Notes under the pieces: model-generated
Databases searched by the model: none
Told to the model about the DNA's origin: nothing
What the model saw: only the letters and a program-made list of their open reading frames with translations
In this document: positions 172 to 31,936 of the stretch, one piece after another
Position numbering within the stretch: position 1 is the stretch's first letter
How the letters are laid out: every line of letters starts with the position of its first letter
Assembly: GCA_029288775.1 (NCBI GenBank)
Contig: JARIGQ010000014.1
Coordinates: forward strand, 1-35,142
DNA: 35,142 bases
DNA from: Candidatus Nomurabacteria bacterium
GTDB lineage: Bacteria; Patescibacteriota; Minisyncoccia; Phycocordibacterales; UBA5272
Direction: 5' to 3'
Program-made: the position numbers and the translations under genes

Positions 172-960
172 GTGGTAGAAGTTTTACTCTATACACTATT
201 CTTTATACTCGGTGCCGCTATCGGAAGTTTTGTGCAGGTTATCGTGAGTCGGCTTAATGTTGCTCCGATAGCCAAGTCTAGAAGCAAGTGCCTCTCCTGC
301 GGAGAGGCACTTCGCGTCTCGGACCTTGTCCCTATTTTCTCCTATCTCTTCTTGCGGGGAAAGTGCAGGTACTGCAAAGTTCCTTTCGGTGCAGAGGCGC
401 TCTTTGTTGAAATTGGGTTTGGCATTATTTTTATTCTCCTGCTTCACTTTATGCTCTTAGGTGCAGCATTCCCAGCGTCACTAGGATGGCTTGTGTATTA
501 CACCATGCTTTTCATTACGCTTGGAGTAATTGCACTCTATGATTTACGTCATACGTACATACCTACAGCATATCTCCTTTGGTTTTCAGCATTGGCGTTT
601 GTGCTTCTTGTAATGCGTTTTCAGGCGGATCCTTCCGCAACGACACTTCTCGGTCCACTCGTAGTCGCTTTACCTTTTCTTCTTATCTGGATGTTTTCTA
701 AGGGAAGAGCAATCGGGTTTGGGGATGTGATTTTGTTTATGGCAATTGGCGCTTTCTTTGGGATTGAGCAAGGGCTTGCGGTGGTGCTTGTAGCTGTGTG
801 GTTGGGAGCCATTATCGGTATTGGTGTGATGGTGATACAAAAATTGAAAGGCAAAAAGCATTCTTCCGTTATCCCATTTGTGCCCTTTATCGTGCTTGCA
901 TTTCTGATTGTTTTGTTCACAGACACTTCCATCTTTTCCTTAGCAGGTCTCTTTGCTTAG
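172..960 (+). CDS. pilD: Type IV prepilin peptidase (A24 aspartic protease)
   Basis: Membrane aspartic protease that cleaves the short leader of type IV prepilins and usually N-methylates the new N-terminus. The N-terminal cytoplasmic loop has the four-cysteine zinc site (C40, C43, C65, C68). The two catalytic aspartates of the family are present: D124 in a YDLRHTYIP context and D185 in the GFGD motif. Several hydrophobic segments follow. At 262 residues it is close to the usual family length. The start is GTG at 172; no convincing Shine-Dalgarno sequence precedes it. It opens a tight gene run with four pilins that are its expected substrates. Confidence 0.95.
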   Translation: MVEVLLYTLFFILGAAIGSFVQVIVSRLNVAPIAKSRSKCLSCGEALRVSDLVPIFSYLFLRGKCRYCKVPFGAEALFVEIGFGIIFILLLHFMLLGAAFPASLGWLVYYTMLFITLGVIALYDLRHTYIPTAYLLWFSALAFVLLVMRFQADPSATTLLGPLVVALPFLLIWMFSKGRAIGFGDVILFMAIGAFFGIEQGLAVVLVAVWLGAIIGIGVMVIQKLKGKKHSSVIPFVPFIVLAFLIVLFTDTSIFSLAGLFA

Positions 961-976
961 TGTTACTATTACATAC

Positions 977-1630
977 ATGAAGATGCCCTTACGGATTGGC
1001 GCTTTTACGCTCATTGAGTTAATGGTAAGTATGACTATTATTACCATTCTTACGTTTATCTTCTTTGGACAATATCCCGAAGCAGCGACACGCTTGTCAC
1101 TTATCAACGTGTCTCATACGACATCGCTTTTGGTACGTGAAGCTCAAGTACGCGGAAGTGCGATTGATTCCTTAAATAGCGCTCTAGGTGGATATGGCGT
1201 ATACGCTACTTTAAGTTCCCCTGACAGAATTGTTTTGTTTGGTGATACGGTAGATAGCTCAGTTCCAAAGCCTAATGGGGTTGCCGTCGGCAACGGTCTT
1301 TTTGATAATTCCCCCATTAATGAAACCAAAACTACATCCATTTTTCCTACGGGATATATCGTCAAAAAGCTCTGTGTGGGAAGTGGTTTTCCTTTTACCT
1401 GTAATACAAACAATACCCCTAACATTACCTCGCTTACGATTTCTTTTACTCGTCCGGATCCTGAACCACACATTTATATTAATAACGCTACATCTTCATC
1501 TGCTTCAGCGGGGTGTATAGAATTGCGAGCACCGCTAGATACTCGCTCGGGGCATATTCGATCGGTGCAAGTATATAATTCCGGCAGAATTACGATTGTT
1601 GTAGGTAAGTGTGATAATAGTTCATCATGA
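977..1630 (+). CDS. Minor type IV pilin / pseudopilin (GspH-like position)
   Basis: The protein of about 217 residues starts with a short charged leader (MKMPLRIGA) followed by FTLIELMVSM and a long hydrophobic helix, the class III prepilin signal. Cleavage should occur before the Phe, leaving Ala instead of the usual Gly at -1 and Glu at +5. The frame could start at TTG 953, overlapping the peptidase gene, but ATG 977 gives a normal prepilin leader and is preferred. Two cysteines (SGFPFTC region) and one near the end may form disulfides. It overlaps the next pilin gene by ATGA, suggesting translational coupling. Exact class (GspH/FimT-like) is inferred from gene order only. Confidence 0.85.
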   Translation: MKMPLRIGAFTLIELMVSMTIITILTFIFFGQYPEAATRLSLINVSHTTSLLVREAQVRGSAIDSLNSALGGYGVYATLSSPDRIVLFGDTVDSSVPKPNGVAVGNGLFDNSPINETKTTSIFPTGYIVKKLCVGSGFPFTCNTNNTPNITSLTISFTRPDPEPHIYINNATSSSASAGCIELRAPLDTRSGHIRSVQVYNSGRITIVVGKCDNSSS

Positions 1631-2268
1631 TGTATTTACTCCGTCACAACACAGGTAAGATGGCTGGGATGCGAGGATTTACTCTGGTTGAGCTTCTCGT
1701 TGCGATGGCAATTTTTGTGTTCGTAATCACCATAGCCACGGGCGCGCTCTTTTCTGCGCAAGCTGTGAATGGAAAATTGGAACAGACGCAGAACGTGCTT
1801 GATGGTGTGAATCTTTCCGTTGAATTATTGGTTCGCGATATACGGTACGGTTCTAACTTTTGGTGCGGAACCGGATCGGTACCAGCCGTAGTTCCAACTA
1901 CAAGAAATTCTTGTCCATCGTCGGGAGGTAACGTACTTGTGTTTCGACCAAGTATTGCTCTCTCTGGAACAACTGATCAAACTCAGGATAGGGTAGCCTA
2001 TTATCTTTCCAACGGAGTCTTGTATAAAAGCGAATACCCGTACGGAGTTTCGTCGCGAACCTTTCAAATTACTTCAGGGGACGTAAAGATAAGCACGCTT
2101 GCCTTTTTTTCCAAAGGATATGAGAGTTCTTATGATACGTCCGTGGATTATAATCAGCCTATAACAACCATTGTATTATCCGGAACCACTATTCCTTTAA
2201 AGATAACTGCCAAGCCTGTACAATTTTCCATACAAACAAGTGCCTCATCTCGTGTTTTGGATAAATAA
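1627..2268 (+). CDS. Minor type IV pilin / pseudopilin (GspJ/PilW-like)
   Basis: The 213-residue protein carries a prepilin signal with the classic junction RG / FTLVELLVAM, so cleavage leaves Phe at +1 and Glu at +5. A leader of about 16 residues precedes it and a hydrophobic helix follows. The start ATG at 1627 overlaps the stop of the upstream pilin (ATGA), and a second ATG lies at 1630. The downstream region contains the VRDIRYGSNFW segment typical of GspJ/PilW-type minor pilins, which have a basic, charged stretch after the helix. Likely part of a minor pilin complex that primes pilus assembly; the subclass is an inference. Confidence 0.87.
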   Translation: MMYLLRHNTGKMAGMRGFTLVELLVAMAIFVFVITIATGALFSAQAVNGKLEQTQNVLDGVNLSVELLVRDIRYGSNFWCGTGSVPAVVPTTRNSCPSSGGNVLVFRPSIALSGTTDQTQDRVAYYLSNGVLYKSEYPYGVSSRTFQITSGDVKISTLAFFSKGYESSYDTSVDYNQPITTIVLSGTTIPLKITAKPVQFSIQTSASSRVLDK

Positions 2269-2270
2269 CC

Positions 2271-2960
2271 ATGACTCATTTTTTTTCTCGCCGCCAACAT
2301 TCTCATTTCAAAGCGTTCACGCTTGTTGAGACGCTCGTTGCAACTATGATTATTACCATGGTAATTTTGGGCCCGCTTACCGTGGCGACGAATGCTTCCT
2401 CATATGCTCGCGTGACCAAGGATACACTTACGGCAACCTATCTTGCACAAGAAGCAGTGGAATTGTTGCACCATCAGCAGGATTCAGTGTATATCCGCTG
2501 TGTGCAAGAAGCTGGTAGTGTGTGTACGCTAATTGGATCCGAATCACCTTCGCAAGCTGCGTGGAGGATATTCCGCAATCGATTGAATGCTTCAAGTTCG
2601 CTGTCCTGCTTTTCAAACGAAAATGCGCTCGGATGTTCCTATGATTATATTGATATGACTACAAATGAGGACGCGACTCCGTCTAAGTACAGAAGCGATC
2701 TTGCTTCTTGTAATAAACTTTCGATTCAGACAAGTACTGGACTTTACGTATGTACTGGAGCTCATGGGTCGGGTGCGGGATACACACCTACCTACTTCAA
2801 TAGAAGTGTATCTATTACTTCTATTCCAACCTTCGGATCTGGCACCAATGAGCAGAATTACAATGATGATTTGCGTGTGACGGCAACAGTAACCTTTACG
2901 CGAACCAATGGCTATCAGCGCCAAGTGAAGGTCGTAGATTTTCTCCACGCCCGAGCATAA
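2271..2960 (+). CDS. Minor type IV pilin / pseudopilin (GspI/PilV-like)
   Basis: A prepilin signal lies at residues 12-24: basic leader, then KA / FTLVETLVA, giving Ala at -1 and Glu at +5. The segment YLAQEAVELL after the helix resembles the conserved AQ.A.E motif of GspI/PilV pseudopilins. The 229-residue protein has several cysteines (IRCVQ, SVCTL, LSCF, LGCS, ASCN, YVCT), suggesting a disulfide-stabilised extracellular domain. It begins 3 nt after the previous stop and ends 2 nt before the next start, so it belongs to the same transcript. Confidence 0.86.
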   Translation: MTHFFSRRQHSHFKAFTLVETLVATMIITMVILGPLTVATNASSYARVTKDTLTATYLAQEAVELLHHQQDSVYIRCVQEAGSVCTLIGSESPSQAAWRIFRNRLNASSSLSCFSNENALGCSYDYIDMTTNEDATPSKYRSDLASCNKLSIQTSTGLYVCTGAHGSGAGYTPTYFNRSVSITSIPTFGSGTNEQNYNDDLRVTATVTFTRTNGYQRQVKVVDFLHARA

Positions 2961-2961
2961 T

Positions 2962-5620
<2,659 letters not shown>

Positions 5621-7325: not shown

Positions 7326-8708
7326 ATGTACTCCCTGTCGATAGACTATTTGTTCAATCGCGTATACGACGGTCTCCTGTGGATCAAGTATGTGTGGCTG
7401 TTTGTAGTGCTTCATAAAAGTCAGGAGGACTATTTGGCAGCACACACGGCTTCGGATTATGATGGGTTACGTGATCGCGGCTGGCTTGATGTTGCAACAC
7501 AACAGAATGTACCCGTACCTCCTGCAGAGGTTCATGTTTCCTTGTGGCAGCGTTTTTTGGAAAAATTGGGAATTTCTTTTAAGGATTCAGATCATGACGG
7601 TAATCCTGATATTACGGATAGTAAGGAACATGATCCTTACAACCTCACGCCGGCTCAATTAAAAGAGCGGTACAGTGAAGATTATTCACTTATGGATCAT
7701 GTGCGAGATTGGTTTGGTATTGGACCAAAAGACTCAGATGGGGATGGGGTTCCGGATAGTTATGAATTAGCTCATCATCTTGATCCTCACAATCCCGACA
7801 CTGATATGGATGGAATTCCAGACGGACAGGAGCTTGCCATGGGAACAGACCCTTTGAATAATGATACCGATGGGGACTTAGTGCTTGATGGAAGGGATGC
7901 TTATCCGCTTGATGGTACGCGTTCGATTGCGGAAAATGATGTTGATTCGGATGGGGATGGTGTGGGGGACAAGTATGAAACTGCTTTGGGAACCGATCCA
8001 CATAATCGTGATACCGACGGGGACGGTATTCCAGATGGAATGGATACCTATCCGCTAGATCCCAATAATGTAAGTCATATTCAAGCGCTCGATCTTCATA
8101 CTGCATCTCAGGGTATTCATTTTTCAGTACAAAATCCGGTGCTTGCTCTTTTTACTTCGTTACTGTCCATTGCGGCTATCGCTATTCTCTTGGTGTTTGT
8201 ATATGTGGTGTTGAGATGGTTATGGACATTTTTGGACGGACTCAATCATTTTGATCATCATTTTGCTCATGACAACCACGGTGCTCACGGAGACCTTCAT
8301 GTCGTAGAAGATGAACACGATGCTATACTAGCGGGCATTGCAAATCTGCCCGTTTTTGAAGATGCACCTGCACCGCCTCCATCTTCTCAGGATTTCGAAG
8401 AGCATCCGCGTTTTGCAATTATTCAAGGATATATGTCATCTAACAGCGAAGCGCTCTGGAGAATTGGCATTTTGGAAGCAGATAATATGTTATTTGAGGT
8501 AATGCGCGCTAAGGGGTACACAGGGGAGACAGTGGCGGATATGCTTAAGAGTGCCAGTTTCAAGACCGTACAAATGGCGTGGGACGCTCATGGGGTGCGC
8601 AATCGCATTGCTCACGAAGGATCGAATTTCCAATTGACCGAACGCGAAGCAAAGAGGGCATTTACGCTTTACGAGTCGGTATTTAGGGAATTGAAGGCAA
8701 TTAGATAA
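7326..8708 (+). CDS. Membrane protein with thrombospondin-3-type calcium repeats and RxxxxH C-terminal domain
   Basis: The 460-residue protein is not a family I can name as a whole. A hydrophobic stretch lies near residues 17-30. Residues 86-245 hold at least five DxDxDG-type repeats (KDSDHDGNPD, KDSDGDGVPD, DTDMDGIPD, DSDGDGVGD, DTDGDGIPD), the acidic calcium-binding pattern of thrombospondin type-3 repeats. A strong transmembrane helix spans about 271-298. A His/Asp-rich linker (308-331) follows, then a Pro-rich linker and a helical C-terminal domain (about 360-460). That domain contains RNRIAH (425-430), which fits the RxxxxH motif of HEPN-type domains. The repeats would be outside and the helical domain in the cytoplasm. 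It follows gatA by 8 nt and ends at a strong terminator. Domain names are inferred from motifs only. Confidence 0.75.
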   Translation: MYSLSIDYLFNRVYDGLLWIKYVWLFVVLHKSQEDYLAAHTASDYDGLRDRGWLDVATQQNVPVPPAEVHVSLWQRFLEKLGISFKDSDHDGNPDITDSKEHDPYNLTPAQLKERYSEDYSLMDHVRDWFGIGPKDSDGDGVPDSYELAHHLDPHNPDTDMDGIPDGQELAMGTDPLNNDTDGDLVLDGRDAYPLDGTRSIAENDVDSDGDGVGDKYETALGTDPHNRDTDGDGIPDGMDTYPLDPNNVSHIQALDLHTASQGIHFSVQNPVLALFTSLLSIAAIAILLVFVYVVLRWLWTFLDGLNHFDHHFAHDNHGAHGDLHVVEDEHDAILAGIANLPVFEDAPAPPPSSQDFEEHPRFAIIQGYMSSNSEALWRIGILEADNMLFEVMRAKGYTGETVADMLKSASFKTVQMAWDAHGVRNRIAHEGSNFQLTEREAKRAFTLYESVFRELKAIR

Positions 8709-14051: not shown

Positions 14052-15359
14052 ATGTATACCATCACTACTGGTGGATCGTCCGATACTTCGGAGCGATCAC
14101 ATTCTCGTTCACGTTTTAATTCTGATCGTCCATCTCGCGGACGTTCCTTCTCTTCCGATCGTGGAGGGCGTGGAGGAGGTTCTCGTGGTCGTTTCAGCTC
14201 TCGTGGAGGTTCTCCAAAGCCATTTAATCCCAAGAAAGGATTTCGTAAGGATTATATCGATGAGAAGCTTTTTATCAATAAAGATGCTGCCGTATCTGAA
14301 GCTACGGATTATGTAGCGGAACACGTGTTCACCGATTTTGGCATTGCAGAATTACTTTCCGCGAACTTAACCGCAAAGGGACTCATTAAGCCATCTCCTA
14401 TTCAGGATCAGGCTATTCCTGTGGTGCTTCAAGGTAAAGATGTTGTTGGTATCGCTTCCACCGGAACCGGTAAGACTGCAGCCTTTCTTATTCCGCTTAT
14501 TAACAAGCTTGTGGCAAACAAAGATCAGAAGTTCATGGTGCTTTGTCCTACTCGCGAACTTGCCCTTCAGGTAGAAGCAGAGTTCATCAACTTTACTCGA
14601 GGCATGAAACTCTTTTCAGTTTCATGTGTGGGTGGTGCGCCAATCATGCGCCAGATCAAGGAACTTGAACTCGGTGTGCATGCGGTTATCGGTACGCCAG
14701 GTCGCGTGAAGGATCTTATCGAACGCGGCAAGATTAATATGAAGTATTTCGATTCTATCGTCCTTGACGAAGCGGATCGCATGCTTGATATGGGATTTAT
14801 CGATGATATGCGTCTTATTCTTGGTCTCATGCCAGAATCAAAGCAAGGACTCTTCTTCTCGGCGACATTTTCGCCTGAGATTAAGCGCCTCGTGAATGAT
14901 TTCTTGAAGGATCCTGTAACGATTTCTATCAAGAGTCGTGATACAGCGTCATCAGTAATCCAGGACGTTATCCGTGCAAACACTGATGCGGAAAAGCTCG
15001 AAGCACTTCATGATATTTTGGTTCGTCCAGAAGCGAAGAAGGTACTTATCTTCCGCGAAATGAAGCGTCACGTAGATAAGCTTGCCGAGGAACTCAAGGC
15101 TCGTGGATTTAACGCACTTGGGCTTCATGGTGATATGCACAACCGCGAACGCGAACGTGCGGTGAAGTCACTGGAAACGGGCCGTGTACAAGTTGTGATT
15201 GCAACGGACGTTGCTGCTCGCGGACTTGATATCTCTGACATCTCGCTTGTCGTGAACTACGATATTCCAAACAACTACGAAACCTACATTCACCGTATTG
15301 GACGAACAGGACGAGGGACCAAGCTAGGCTACGCACTTACCTTCGTACCTAATCGGTAA
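14052..15359 (+). CDS. DEAD-box ATP-dependent RNA helicase with N-terminal RGG region
   Basis: Unwinds RNA duplexes using ATP, with likely roles in ribosome assembly, mRNA decay or cold adaptation. The helicase core is complete: Q motif (PSPIQDQ), motif I ASTGTGKT, Ia PTRELALQ, Ib GTPGR, II DEAD, III SAT, V TDVAARGLDI and VI HRIGRTGRG. The protein ends right after motif VI, with no C-terminal RNA-binding extension. Instead the first 65 residues are a disordered Arg/Gly/Ser tail with RGG repeats (R37, R40, R51). RGG tails more often lie at the C-terminus of bacterial DEAD-box proteins. It has its own consensus promoter and a long leader. Confidence 0.96.
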   Translation: MYTITTGGSSDTSERSHSRSRFNSDRPSRGRSFSSDRGGRGGGSRGRFSSRGGSPKPFNPKKGFRKDYIDEKLFINKDAAVSEATDYVAEHVFTDFGIAELLSANLTAKGLIKPSPIQDQAIPVVLQGKDVVGIASTGTGKTAAFLIPLINKLVANKDQKFMVLCPTRELALQVEAEFINFTRGMKLFSVSCVGGAPIMRQIKELELGVHAVIGTPGRVKDLIERGKINMKYFDSIVLDEADRMLDMGFIDDMRLILGLMPESKQGLFFSATFSPEIKRLVNDFLKDPVTISIKSRDTASSVIQDVIRANTDAEKLEALHDILVRPEAKKVLIFREMKRHVDKLAEELKARGFNALGLHGDMHNRERERAVKSLETGRVQVVIATDVAARGLDISDISLVVNYDIPNNYETYIHRIGRTGRGTKLGYALTFVPNR

Positions 15360-16402: not shown

Positions 16403-16942
16403 ATGAACTATTTAAAAGAAGGGGATAAGGTTCCACAGGTTACCTTTAAGACTCGTGTTCGCGATGAGTCCGTAGGCGGAGACAATCCGTTCCGTTGGCA
16501 AGACCTTACCACTGACGACATCTTCAAAGGGAAGAAGGTTGTACTCTTTGGTCTTCCGGGTGCGTTTACTCCGACGTGTTCGTCAACGCATGCTCCAGGG
16601 TACGATGCGAAGTATGAAGAATTCAAAGCGCTTGGAGTAGATGAAGTGATTTGTCTTTCGGTAAACGATGCATTCGTCATGTATCAGTGGAAGCAGAAGC
16701 TTGGTCTTGCTCATGTGTTCATGCTTCCAGATGGAAATGGAGATTTTACGAAAGGTATGGGAATGCTCGTGGATAAGAGCAATCTTGGATTCGGTCACCG
16801 CTCCTGGCGTTATTCGATGCTTGTTGAGGACGGTGTCATTAAGAAGCTGTTTGCAGAACCGGGATTTATGGATTTGTGCCCAACAGATCCATTTGAGGTG
16901 TCGGACGCAGATACTATTCTCAATTATCTAAAGACAAATTAG
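16403..16942 (+). CDS. Peroxiredoxin, Prx5 type
   Basis: Thiol peroxidase that reduces H2O2 and organic hydroperoxides in the cytoplasm. The active-site motif [12 protein letters not shown] contains the peroxidatic C59; the conserved Arg lies in [10 protein letters not shown]84 and C159 could act as resolving cysteines. The 179-residue length and the ending [12 protein letters not shown] match the Prx5/PMP20 group. Some of these are fused to a glutaredoxin domain; here there is none, but a separate small glutaredoxin-like gene lies at 34896. The gene is monocistronic and followed by copy 2 of the hairpin element. Confidence 0.95.
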
Positions 16943-18232: not shown

Positions 18233-18805
18233 TTATGCTAAAGCCTTGATTTCACTTAGGAATCTTTCGAAATGTCGGTCAGCTCTTTCTCCTCGCCACT
18301 TGTCTAAGTTGCCGCAGATTTTAAAATCCACAACATCAATGCCTACGAAATTGAAAAGTGTCGTAATCCAGAATTGACGAAGCGGAAGTATTGGTAAATG
18401 GTACCACCATGATGGTCCGCCAGCGGTTGCAAAAATTTTGGCAATTTTTCCTTCAAGCATTGGTTGCACCTTGCCGTCCGGCATGTATTTGTACGCGAAA
18501 TGTACCCAAAAGGTAAGATCCACCCAGTTTTTCATTACTGCAGGAGGAAGTCCCCACCAAATTGGGTGCACCATCACAATTTCATCAGCCCAGGTGACTT
18601 GATCCTCAAAGGTCTTCTGGAGTGCAGGAGGCGTCATTTCGCGAATATTTTCAAAACAGAGAAGTTCGCAGGTATATTCTTGAGAATACAAATCAACGAG
18701 CTTTACTTCATGACCTTTTGCTTGTTTTGCGTTTTTATAGGCTTCAGCGATTTTGCGGGCATGACCATTGTGAGAAGGATGAGCAAGTACGATAAGGGAT
18801 TTCAT
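18233..18805 (-). CDS. NAD(P)H-dependent oxidoreductase, flavodoxin fold (MdaB/KefF/NQO group)
   Basis: FMN- or FAD-dependent quinone reductase-type protein of 190 residues. The N-terminus MKSLIVLAHPSHNGHARKIA is the usual nucleotide-binding loop. The pattern DEIVMVHPIWWGLPPAVMKNW is the conserved segment of this family, and ATAGGPSWWY matches the third flavin-contact region. Likely roles are two-electron reduction of quinones or electrophiles, consistent with the nearby peroxiredoxin. It is preceded by a -10 box 9 nt before the ATG. Confidence 0.9.
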   Translation of the reverse strand: MKSLIVLAHPSHNGHARKIAEAYKNAKQAKGHEVKLVDLYSQEYTCELLCFENIREMTPPALQKTFEDQVTWADEIVMVHPIWWGLPPAVMKNWVDLTFWVHFAYKYMPDGKVQPMLEGKIAKIFATAGGPSWWYHLPILPLRQFWITTLFNFVGIDVVDFKICGNLDKWRGERADRHFERFLSEIKALA

Positions 18806-28916: not shown

Positions 28917-30272
28917 ATGGCGAAGAGAGGATCTTCACAAAAAAAGAGTTCACCGAAAAAAGTCGCGACCAAAAGCGCGGCCAAAAAAACAAAAACAAAG
29001 GCAAGTGCAAAAAAGAGCACGCCAGCCAAGAAGGCATCTGCGAAGAAAACTAAAGTCATAGCCAAGAAGGCAGCGAAACCGACAGCTGCTGCCAAGAAAT
29101 CTCCGAAAGCTGTAAAGGCTGCTCCGAAGGTTGAAGCAAAACCAAAATATAAACCAAAGGCGTTTACCATTAAAACTGGTCCATCCAAGCCACGTGCTCC
29201 GGAAAAACCAAAAAAAGTAACGACACGGGAACAAAATGAAGCGGAACTACTCCAGAAGGGGAAGGAACGCGGTTTTATCACGTATGACGAAATCATGCGG
29301 TATTTCCCGACGATTGAAACAGATATCGTTTTTTTGGAAGAACTCTATCAGAAATTAGAAGGTGCAGGAGTTGATGTACTTGAAGGTGGAAATCTTCTCG
29401 ACATGGATGAAGAAGGTAAGCTTGCGGGAAGCGATTCTACTCATGACTCAATTCAGATGTATCTTCGCGAAATTGGTCAGTACCCTCTCATTTCAGGAGA
29501 TGATGAACGCGAGCTTGCAAAGCGTATCGCCAAAGGAGACATGGAAGCAGGTGCACTTCTTGCAAAAGCAAACCTTCGTCTTGTGGTATCTATCGCCAAG
29601 AAGTATGTGGGACGATCAAGTGATCTCACACTACTTGACCTTATTCAGGAAGGAAACCTGGGGTTGTTTAAAGCAGTGGAGAAATTCGACTTTACGAAAG
29701 GATTTAAATTCTCAACGTATGCTACCTGGTGGATTCGCCAGGCTATTACTCGTGCGCTTGCCGATCAGTCTCGTACGATTCGTATTCCGGTGCACATGGT
29801 AGAAACTATTGCCAAGTACAAGCAGGTGGTGCGTCGTCTTTCTCAAGATCTTGGACGAGATCCGCTTGCAGAAGAGATTGCGGTAGAAATGGGTGTTGAT
29901 GTTGATAAGGTGCATATCATTGAAAATATCAATCAAGATACTGTGTCGCTCGAAAAACCAATTGGAGATGATGATGATAAGTCAACGCTTGGAGAATTTA
30001 TTGCGGATGATAAGATTCTTTCTCCAGATCAGGAAGCATCTCATCGTATTCTGGCAGATCAGATCAATGAAATTCTTGATGATCTTTCTCCAAAGGAACG
30101 CAAGATTGTAGAGATGCGAAATGGTCTCGGAGAATTCGACGGCGTCATGCATACGCTTGAAGAAGTAGGTGCAGAATTTGGTGTCACTCGCGAACGTATT
30201 CGTCAGATCGAAGCCAAGGTGCATGAGAAAATTCGTTCTCACGACAAAGCAGAGAGATTGCGAAATTACTAA
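28917..30272 (+). CDS. rpoD: Primary sigma factor (sigma-70) with histone-H1-like N-terminal tail
   Basis: Main promoter-recognition factor of RNA polymerase, 451 residues. After a long tail comes region 1.1 (about 103-160, [15 protein letters not shown]), then 1.2 ([11 protein letters not shown]), region 2 ([35 protein letters not shown]), region 3.0 ([10 protein letters not shown]) and region 4.2 ([20 protein letters not shown]). The His and Glu in HMVE correspond to the residues that contact the TG of extended -10 promoters, in line with the promoters seen here. The first 100 residues contain 34 Lys and about 21 Ala in AKK-type repeats, like a histone H1 tail, which is unusual for a sigma factor. 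Confidence 0.97.
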
Positions 30273-30310
30273 GGCAGTGGGCTTAGTAGATTAAGTACAT
30301 ACAGTAATTA

Positions 30311-30347
30311 AGTAAACAAAAGCGCCTGAAGGGCGCTTTTGTTTACT
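30311..30347. terminator. Intrinsic terminator after rpoD
   Basis: 16-bp stem (30311-30326 with 30332-30347), loop TGAAG, with a T-rich 3' arm. It also faces the convergent gene ending at 30399. Confidence 0.9.
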
Positions 30348-30398
30348 GAGCATACTGAAATCTACTGGGTTACTTGTATGTACTTACTTTACTATGTT

Positions 30399-30857
30399 TT
30401 AGTAGCAGATGTACTGTCCGTACATGTTGTACGAGCAGTTTAGATAATTTTGGTAACCGCTATAGTTGGTATAGGTGTTGCTGAAAATGCTGCTCGAATA
30501 TCCCGGGTACCAGGAGCCATTATTGTATCCATAGGTATAGTATTGCGTTGTCGGGTAGGTATACGTAGTTGGATAGTAAGTGGTGGCTGGATAGGTGGTG
30601 TAGTAATAACTTGTTGGTTGATTGTAAGTGGTGCAAATATTTTGAGTGGAGATTTCTGCGCCTGTGGAGGTATTGTAATAATGCGTCACACATCCAATTG
30701 TGTAGGAACCTACTCCACTTCCATAACTTACGTAGGATGAATTGCCATAATACGGACGCTGATAGTAGTAGGTATTGGTTGTATACTGCGCGCTTGCCGT
30801 ACCAAGTCCGGTAATTGTAAGCCCTAGAAAGGAAAGCATGAGAAAGATTTTTTTCAT
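30399..30857 (-). CDS. Exported tyrosine-rich low-complexity protein
   Basis: The 152-residue protein starts with a standard signal peptide (MKKIFLMLSFLGL..., cleavage likely after ASA at residue 23). The mature part is about one quarter tyrosine (34 of 129), with much Thr, Ser, Asn and Gly and only a few charged residues. Four cysteines (GCVTH, NICTT, NCSY, YICY) could form two disulfides. It is therefore a secreted or surface structural protein, perhaps adhesive or coat-forming; this is inferred from composition. ATG 30857 is preferred to TTG 30866, which overlaps the -10 box. Confidence 0.75.
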   Translation of the reverse strand: MKKIFLMLSFLGLTITGLGTASAQYTTNTYYYQRPYYGNSSYVSYGSGVGSYTIGCVTHYYNTSTGAEISTQNICTTYNQPTSYYYTTYPATTYYPTTYTYPTTQYYTYGYNNGSWYPGYSSSIFSNTYTNYSGYQNYLNCSYNMYGQYICY

Positions 30858-30865
30858 AGTAGTCA

Positions 30866-30871
30866 ATTATA
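30866..30871 (-). promoter_or_regulatory. -10 box of the tyrosine-rich protein gene
   Basis: TATAAT on the minus strand, 8 nt before the ATG at 30857. Confidence 0.7.
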
Positions 30872-30925
30872 TGCGTTATGGATAATGACGATACGTCTAT
30901 TTCAATATTACACTATAGCGAGCCC

Positions 30926-30954
30926 TTGAAAAAGTCTTAGAAATATGGTACTAT
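30926..30954 (+). promoter_or_regulatory. Promoter of obg
   Basis: -35 TTGAAA (30926-30931), 17-nt spacer, extended -10 TG-G-TACTAT (hexamer 30949-30954). The ATG at 30962 is 7 nt downstream. Confidence 0.75.
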
Positions 30955-30961
30955 GTGTGCC

Positions 30962-31936
30962 ATGTTAATCGACTCCATTACCCTTACGATACGGGCCGGA
31001 AAAGGCGGTGACGGCGTAGTTCGCTGGCGGCGCGAGAAGGGTATTCCGTATGGAGGGCCAGCTGGAGGTGATGGTGGTAAGGGTGGTAATGTGTACTTCA
31101 AAGTGGTGCGTGATATTGCTGCACTTGCTCAATATAAGCATAAGACTGATTGGGAAGCAGAAGGTGGTGAAGCCGGACAGAAGCGCAGCATGCACGGTTC
31201 CAATGGCGAGGATCTTTATTTACCCATTCCGCTTGGAGCAGTGATTCATAATCGCGAATACGATACGACGTATGAATGTCTCACTGAAGGCGAGGCAATT
31301 TTGGTCCTTCGTGGAGGTGAGGGTGGGCTGGGTAATGAGAAATTTAAGTCTTCTACCAATCGTACACCGGAAGAATTTACCAAAGGTGCTCCGGGTGAGT
31401 TCGCTACGTTTGATATCGAACTTCGTCTTATTGCGGATGTAGGTATCATCGGTCTTCCAAATGCTGGTAAAAGTTCACTTATTAATGCACTCACTAATGC
31501 GTCTGCAAAAGTAGGCGATTACCCCTTTACCACTCTTGAGCCGAATCTGGGTGCTTATTATGGTTATGTCCTTGCCGATATTCCAGGGCTTATTGAAGGG
31601 GCAAGCGAAGGAAAAGGTTTGGGGCATAAGTTCCTTCGTCATATTACGCGTACACGTATTCTTCTTCATCTCGTATCAGCAGAAAATGAAAACGTAGGCC
31701 AAGTGTATTCAACTATTCGAGATGAGCTCGGGAAATATGACAAAACACTGCTTGATCGCAAAGAGGTTGTGATTTTATCGAAGATTGATACTGTCGATGA
31801 AGCAACATGTGCACAAAAGCTCAAGGAACTGGCCAAAGTTTCGAAACAGGACCCCATTGCCTTGTCGCTTTTTGATGACCTTTCGGTTAAGTCATTCGGA
31901 GATACCCTTATTAAGATTCTTAGGGCAACAGATTAA
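30962..31936 (+). CDS. obg: Obg family GTPase (ObgE/CgtA)
   Basis: Essential GTPase for large ribosomal subunit assembly and growth control. The N-terminal Obg fold is glycine-rich (RAGKGGDGVVRWRREK, GGPAGGDGGKGGNV). The G domain has G1 GLPNAGKSSL, switch I YPFTTLEPNLG, G3 DIPGLIEGASEGKGLG and a G4 variant SKID where NKxD is usual. It ends after the G domain at 324 residues, without a C-terminal OCT domain. An upstream ATG at 30953 overlaps the -10 box, so ATG 30962 is chosen. Its 3' end overlaps the convergent gene by 17 bp. Confidence 0.96.
   Translation: MLIDSITLTIRAGKGGDGVVRWRREKGIPYGGPAGGDGGKGGNVYFKVVRDIAALAQYKHKTDWEAEGGEAGQKRSMHGSNGEDLYLPIPLGAVIHNREYDTTYECLTEGEAILVLRGGEGGLGNEKFKSSTNRTPEEFTKGAPGEFATFDIELRLIADVGIIGLPNAGKSSLINALTNASAKVGDYPFTTLEPNLGAYYGYVLADIPGLIEGASEGKGLGHKFLRHITRTRILLHLVSAENENVGQVYSTIRDELGKYDKTLLDRKEVVILSKIDTVDEATCAQKLKELAKVSKQDPIALSLFDDLSVKSFGDTLIKILRATD

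Follow-up and report, generated by a model that had tools for sequence, protein, structure and literature searches.

Curli are characterized by repeats, an export pore and accessory genes. According to passages of one report, AC3362, a tyrosine-rich surface protein of the diatom Amphora coffeaeformis, is part of an insoluble cell-wall matrix and is not adhesive, and mussel foot proteins are rich in lysine and tyrosine (PMC4220933). In the disordered region of FUS, distributed tyrosines promote phase separation, and it is their number, not their position, that matters for this effect (PMC5704491). The subject of the present analysis is a tyrosine-rich exported protein encoded in a 35,142-nucleotide stretch of Candidatus Nomurabacteria bacterium DNA (assembly GCA_029288775.1, contig JARIGQ010000014.1, hereafter the window), which makes up the whole of contig C12 in a 692-kb genome of 14 contigs (G000). 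The gene lies between rpoD and obgE and recurs at this locus in most genomes of the genus. Selection on its tyrosine content is indicated, and a role in a surface coat or adhesive is plausible and compatible with its sequence features.

Translation of the open reading frame (ORF) on the minus strand, with its ATG at 30857 and its stop codon at 30399-30401, yields 152 amino acids. A predicted 23-residue signal peptide, cut after ...TASA and before QYTT, precedes a mature part of 129 residues. This mature part contains 34 tyrosines (26.4%), 23 threonines (17.8%), 15 serines (11.6%), 12 asparagines (9.3%) and 8.5% glycine, together with four cysteines, one lysine or arginine, one aspartate or glutamate, and one each of methionine, tryptophan and histidine. 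By comparison, the 26 other ORFs of the window taken as genes average 3.4% tyrosine, and none exceeds 5.3%. A preliminary description of this DNA had reported a secreted protein with about 26 percent tyrosine and given no strand. The figure is right for the mature part and not for the full chain, which is 22.4% tyrosine. A signal peptide, richness in tyrosine, threonine, asparagine and serine, four cysteines and low charge had also been described, and translation and residue counts bear all of these out.

The gene is real. A chance ORF or antisense artefact is ruled out by the recurrence of frame, signal peptide and locus in ten other genomes. When the DNA of the gene was base-shuffled 2000 times, the longest open stretch over six frames averaged 69 codons and reached a maximum of 153, which taken alone is modest evidence against a chance origin. 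The five other frames over the gene hold 2 to 28 stops, and the antisense ORFs at homologous loci, compared by eye and unaligned, differ between genomes. Furthermore, among 1145 distinct ATG-initiated ORFs of at least 100 amino acids in the loci examined, the 11 richest in tyrosine are exactly the 11 members of the family described below. An origin of the tyrosine-rich ORF as a random frame is unlikely.

Congeners were surveyed by reading the surroundings of rpoD and obgE and keeping stop-to-stop frames with a minimum length of 50 codons and a tyrosine content of 12% or more. A tyrosine-rich exported ORF occupies this locus in 11 of the 15 genomes of the genus (Candidatus Nomurabacteria/Paceibacterota), the window included. 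Wherever obgE shares a contig with the gene (nine genomes), the two are divergent, and rpoD, which also shares its contig in nine genomes, is always convergent with it; obgE falls on a different contig in G005 and G008, and rpoD in G011 and G013. Other ORFs intervene between the gene and both neighbours in G010, and between the gene and obgE in G007. By sequence, neighbours and relative orientation, these proteins form a single family of orthologues whose locus is fixed. When a profile built from the 11 members was run against 98 genomes (own included), it returned the same 11, at one copy per genome, and marginal matches in G019 and G060. The rpoD/obgE interval of the other four congeners (G001, G003, G004 and G009) holds no such ORF, and the profile found none elsewhere in these genomes.

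Two outcomes had been named beforehand as telling against the protein, namely a signal peptide that is not conserved and absence from close relatives. The protein passes this check. By inspection, the peptide is recognizable in all 11 members, each with a hydrophobic core, an A/V-x-A end and no cysteine at the cleavage site. Its K2 is invariant (in G012 the second methionine was taken as the start), and Sec export is indicated by these sequence features. The protein is present in 11 of the 15 genomes and absent from four, so the genus can do without it. In a tree built from RpoD and ObgE, the backbone of which is weakly supported, these absences occur at three separate points (G001, G004 and the pair G003/G009), most simply explained by a single gain and two or three later losses. 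The rpoD-obgE interval also holds other ORFs of unknown kind in G010, G003 and G007 (L080:7368-8440 +, L082:7470-8117 + and L085:8031-8768 -), and it looks like a small site of gene turnover.

Tyrosine content is the most constant property of the family. Mature members are 114-181 amino acids long and pairwise identity ranges from 77% down to 29%, lying below 50% in 52 of 55 pairs. Tyrosine nevertheless makes up 24-29% of all 11 mature parts (27.1% pooled), far above the 12% threshold used to pick the ORFs. The spread of tyrosine across members is below binomial expectation (chi-squared 1.86, 10 degrees of freedom, lower-tail P 0.003), while asparagine (chi-squared 30.4) and glycine (45.4) are over-dispersed in the same 11 sequences, and serine and glutamine are also more variable. 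The guanine-plus-cytosine fraction of the gene ranges from 0.27 to 0.42 with little movement of tyrosine (r -0.30). In the closest pair, G005/G008, tyrosine is kept in 36 of the 43 columns containing it, compared with 25/34 for asparagine, 13/27 for threonine and 11/29 for serine. This retention is higher than that of N, T, S, G, P or Q, with only cysteine (2/2) above it among the eight residues counted, and 11 of the 36 kept tyrosine codons differ synonymously. By the NG86 method, the ratio of nonsynonymous to synonymous divergence (dN/dS) in this pair is approximately 0.16/0.93 = 0.17, with synonymous sites well diverged; the next two closest pairs are saturated at these sites. Purifying selection on the gene is thus shown in the only close pair at hand, and selection on the tyrosine content as such is indicated. 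Adjacent Tyr-Tyr pairs are depleted, with 67 seen against 115 expected (z -6.05), so that the tyrosines are spread along the chain. A one-faced tyrosine ladder in beta strands was considered and rejected, tyrosine at i+2 not being enriched (z 0.7).

A further recurrent property is the cysteines, which number two, four or six and are thus even in 11 of 11 members; paired cysteines are indicated for the exported protein. A mid-chain module has the spacing C-x18-C in eight members, C-x17-C in one and a shorter C-x13-C in two, and its invariant residues in the nine C-x18/17-C members are the two cysteines and one tyrosine only. Six of the 11 end in a C-x8/9-C pair and a single further residue, which is Y in five of them and N in the sixth. 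Between these lies a QYYTYGYNNGSWYPG motif that ends in WYP in five members, with looser tryptophan-containing versions in four more by eye. AlphaFold2 models built with nine aligned sequences have a mean predicted local distance difference test score (pLDDT) of 42 (window protein) and 55 (G006 homologue). Both models predict three strands for the cysteine module, with pLDDT near 70 (window) and 90 (G006). The strands of the window model lie within residues 49-73, with mean pLDDT 68 over residues 51-60 and 71 over 61-70; the corresponding means in G006 are 88 over 61-70 and 90 over 71-80. Elsewhere confidence is low, 107 of 152 residues falling below 50 in the window protein, and 67 of 153 below 50 and 57 at 50-70 in G006. 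Most of the chain outside the cysteine module is probably disordered, as these models suggest.

The reading favoured here, to which we give about an even chance, is that of a small Sec-exported structural surface protein with tyrosine "stickers" and two cysteine-pair staples that self-associates into a coat, gel or adhesive film. Cleavage of the signal peptide would release a mostly disordered, nearly uncharged chain bearing about 34 tyrosines as distributed stickers. Two cysteine pairs would then staple a small beta module in mid-chain and a hairpin at the C-terminus. Many copies could self-associate through Tyr-Tyr contacts, beta pairing and possibly intermolecular disulfides, forming a thin layer (a coat, gel or adhesive film) over the cell or where it touches another organism. 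The composition and the avoidance of adjacent tyrosines fit a sticker-type low-complexity protein with distributed aromatics and few charges, and the data fit tyrosine valence as the selected trait with disulfide modules as staples. By analogy with FUS, the window protein should tend to self-associate, and by analogy with tyrosine-rich wall proteins it could form an insoluble layer. Self-association, retention at the surface and the coat or adhesive role are nonetheless what we infer from these features. A coat is held a little likelier than a glue because the diatom protein AC3362, found by similar reasoning, is a cell-wall component and not an adhesive.

Several results weigh against this interpretation. 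No lipobox or sorting signal was recognized in the window protein, which could simply diffuse away. It ends in ...QYICY, without LPXTG, a hydrophobic stretch or a basic tail. Sortase-family proteins occur in five of the 15 genus genomes, three with and two without the tyrosine-rich protein, and not in the window's own genome; anchoring by sortase is therefore unsupported. Likewise, the disulfide enzyme VKOR was found above cut-off in none of the 15 genomes, with two sub-threshold matches. The low pLDDT may reflect poor modelling from nine sequences, not disorder. Proline is also under-dispersed (chi-squared 3.46, lower-tail P 0.03) and threonine is neutral, and the under-dispersion of tyrosine could stem partly from shared ancestry. 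Such ancestry does inflate the dispersion test, yet asparagine, glycine, serine and glutamine show no such restraint in the same sequences. Both the residue-retention result and the dN/dS value come from a single pair. A gap-variance test of tyrosine spacing is significant in one of 11 proteins, so that strictly even spacing is rejected and regularity beyond the avoidance of adjacent tyrosines is unsupported. The four congeners without the gene belong on the same side of the balance.

An alternative that we consider unlikely is a released small protein whose target is a partner cell or a competitor, such as a fast-evolving ligand or decoy, with the disulfide beta module as its active part and the tyrosine-rich arms as spacers. 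A small, exported protein without an anchor, with its low identity among congeners, patchy presence and lack of a convincing homologue outside the genus, would suit such a role, and the cysteine module is the best-predicted fold. However, the steadiest trait is the tyrosine content of the whole chain and not the module, which is of a different, shorter kind in two of 11 members; the closest pair is under purifying and not diversifying selection, and no family matched above cut-off. A near-neutral low-complexity orphan, that is, an exported frame that drifted to tyrosine and asparagine richness and is tolerated without a specific role, would likewise account for the low complexity, the many indels, the three places of absence and the lack of a known family. 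This is improbable; against it stand the dN/dS of the closest pair, the restraint on tyrosine while asparagine and glycine drift, the even cysteines throughout and the fact that 11 of 15 congeners carry the gene, each as one copy at the same locus.

The constraint on tyrosine could also be explained by a sacrificial antioxidant or metal/radical sink, in which exposed tyrosines absorb oxidants outside a low-metabolism cell and crosslinking is a by-product. The window also encodes a redoxin-family protein (16403-16942) and, on the minus strand, a flavodoxin-like protein (18233-18805), consistent with a cell that may handle redox stress. Little credence can be given to this explanation, however, as methionine, tryptophan and histidine, the usual sinks, are rare in the mature part, and clustered tyrosines would serve equally, yet adjacent ones are avoided. 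Similarly doubtful is an accessory role at a type IV pilus or secretion filament, as its coat or its tip. The window does encode a prepilin peptidase and pilin-like proteins, and pilus/secretion ATPases (PF00437) occur in 15 of 15 genomes. These ATPases are, however, also present in the four genomes without the tyrosine-rich protein and do not covary with it, the pilin-like genes are about 27 kb away, and the leader is a plain signal peptide. The link to type IV pili drawn in the preliminary description is accordingly not upheld. Identity as a type IV pilin or pseudopilin was rejected, the window protein having neither an N-methylation motif match nor any other Pfam match at E up to 1. The pseudopilin-like cluster of the window (172-3576, plus strand) begins with a prepilin peptidase. 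Three ORFs that carry N-methylation motifs come next, one of which scores slightly below the Pfam cut-off, along with a fourth, unmatched ORF, and the cluster ends at a DNA ligase gene. Concerning crosslinking, no tyrosinase was matched in the 15 genus genomes, nor in control genomes. The protein does not fall in the mussel-foot class of 3,4-dihydroxyphenylalanine (DOPA) adhesives, its mature part having only one lysine or arginine.

No known family accounts for the protein. Pfam and NCBIfam gave no match above cut-off for the nine of 11 members scanned, sub-cut-off matches including DUF3551 (E 0.022) and Ephrin_CRD (E 0.056). PHROGs gave none at E up to 0.1 for three of 11 members, and PDB sequences gave none at E up to 1 against the family profile. 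A Foldseek search with the better, still low-confidence model (G006) returned nothing significant (best E 4.2). A known family is thus ruled out by these searches. No convincing homologue was found beyond the genus. A single-sequence search of 60 genomes (own included) gave a single clear homologue (G010, E 1e-6) plus a marginal match, and a single-protein scan of genome contigs found nothing. Restriction to the genus is soft, because the single-sequence search missed nine of ten known congener homologues and biased composition hides relatives. Order-wide, a search of 397 genomes including the genus yielded nine genus members and 11 weak matches (best E 1.4e-4), the G060 match among them. Nine of these weak matches start at profile position 1 of 166 and end at 32 to 78, covering the signal peptide and early mature part; of the other two, one spans 1-122 and one 31-81. 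The cysteine module alone, searched in 98 genomes, gave nine genus members and weak matches in seven other genomes (best E 9e-4). Among 53 rpoD loci outside the genus, the last 23 of them not from Patescibacteria, there was no ATG ORF of at least 70 amino acids with at least 10% tyrosine. Three Patescibacteria loci outside the genus with adjacent rpoD and obgE have gaps of 319 (L092), 340 (L091) and 2099 bases (L114), obgE having been recognized there by a crude motif that may miss other loci.

The most tyrosine-rich ORF noted in the 11 weak-match loci reaches 12.8% (L158). This exported ORF (L158:1192-1662, minus strand), from another genus of the order, carries AYPSAYAYS- and VGRPITIGY-like repeats and has no Pfam match. 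In the sister genus, G018 and G019 hold a Tyr/Asn/Gly-rich exported orphan at another locus (L148:1249-1692 - and L074:1501-1878 +), adjoining ORFs that resemble polA, holA and mutM (names by eye); none was found in G017 of the same genus. Like the window family, it is a single small gene with an MKK... signal peptide ending in ...AQ, 24% and 20% tyrosine thereafter, and four and two cysteines, respectively. Unlike that family, it lacks the C-x18-C module and has the C-terminus SINLGFIF. The family profile matched the G019 protein at E 0.004 and did not match that of G018, and homology is not established. The tyrosine-rich exported theme may therefore be wider than the window family.

The surroundings of the gene are of a housekeeping kind. 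Pfam matches identify dnaG and rpoD on the plus strand and the diverging obgE, followed by an ORF without a Pfam match, then gatB, then a miaA-type gene on the minus strand. A hairpin between the convergent rpoD and tyrosine-protein genes has minimum free energies of -30.6 (plus strand) and -28.9 kcal/mol (minus strand) over 61 nucleotides (z -8.8 and -9.0), with none of 200 shuffles equally stable; a simple terminator scan did not list it. Promoter-like sites in 30200-31100 number three against 1.8 expected. All are on the plus strand, one at 30926-30954, and none was found on the minus strand. The coordinates are collected in Table 1.

Table 1. Features of the tyrosine-protein locus, in window coordinates.
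Feature	Position	Strand	Basis
rpoD, primary sigma factor, convergent neighbour	28917..30272	+	Pfam Sigma70_r1_1 to r4
Hairpin between convergent rpoD and tyrosine-protein genes, terminator-like	30311..30347	both	Folding energy against shuffles
Coding sequence, tyrosine-rich exported protein, 152 amino acids	30399..30857	-	ORF and translation; same-locus homologues in 10 other genus genomes
C-terminal cysteine hairpin C141-x9-C151, then Tyr-stop	30405..30437	-	Recurrence across members
QYYTYGYNNGSWYPG motif, predicted beta-hairpin, low confidence	30501..30545	-	Recurrence by eye; low-confidence model strands
Cysteine module C56-x18-C75 (CVTHYYNTSTGAEISTQNIC), predicted three-stranded beta-meander	30633..30692	-	Cysteine pattern across members; AlphaFold2
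Predicted signal peptide MKKIFLMLSFLGLTITGLGTASA (23 amino acids), cleavage motif ASA before Q, no lipobox cysteine	30789..30857	-	Rule-based sequence inspection
Divergent intergenic region with obgE, 95 bp	30858..30952		Coding-sequence coordinates
obgE GTPase, divergent neighbour	30953..31936	+	Pfam GTP1_OBG and MMR_HSR1

Other proteins of the window also carry compositionally unusual segments. RpoD has a long Lys/Ala/Thr-rich N-terminal tail before region 1.1 (28917-29200, plus strand), histone-H1-like in composition by eye, whose lysine richness is kept across the genus and whose sequence is not. The N-terminal extension of a DEAD-box helicase (14052-15359, plus strand) is rich in Arg, Ser and Gly, a second case of a housekeeping protein with a low-complexity tail. 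A 460-residue protein with bacterial TSP3 repeats (7326-8708, plus strand), a possible calcium-binding surface protein, is encoded beside an amidase-family gatA.

To our knowledge, little is understood of the means by which Patescibacteria build, cover and attach their surface, and selection on composition of the kind proposed here has rarely been documented for extracellular bacterial proteins. Patescibacteria reportedly encode few exported proteins, with a mean of 44 signal-peptide proteins of unknown location per genome in an activated-sludge survey (PMC11495043). An exported polymer that is short, cheap to make, encoded by one gene and constrained in its tyrosine content would be a concrete candidate for the material of their outer coat or contact surface. 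Its small size allows it to be made and tested directly, and it would provide a natural example in which composition is selected more tightly than residue order. A more speculative and rather doubtful extension is that a reduced, probably host-dependent genus builds its surface layer from one small protein selected for tyrosine valence and not for sequence, a disulfide-stapled extracellular counterpart of FUS-like regions and of tyrosine-rich animal glues. Related lineages, namely the sister-genus genomes G018 and G019 and perhaps G389, would then have evolved this kind of protein, or invented it afresh, at different loci.

The family is undescribed in the libraries and literature searched. 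The search of open-licence PMC literature gave no paper joining "tyrosine-rich" with the Candidate Phyla Radiation or Patescibacteria, and the titles and abstract starts of the matches listed there describe no such bacterial protein. Its kind is already known, that of the tyrosine-rich low-complexity extracellular structural protein. Like curli CsgA and CsgB, which assemble outside the cell, it is small and exported. Unlike curli, no such repeats were noticed in it, its Pfam-matched neighbours are housekeeping genes and it has no Pfam match itself. As in FUS-type low-complexity regions, many tyrosines of similar weight are set among small polar residues (PMC5704491), whereas the window protein is exported and carries cysteine modules; homology is not expected. 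Like AC3362, it is tyrosine-rich and was chosen by composition and not by homology; the diatom protein, in the passages cited above, lies at the cell surface and has repetitive motifs (PMC4220933). In those same passages AC3362 is eukaryotic, larger (domain positions up to 537) and lysine-rich at 15.5 mol-% (PMC4220933), in contrast to the window protein with its near absence of charge and its cysteine modules, and the comparison is one of kind, with no homology claimed.
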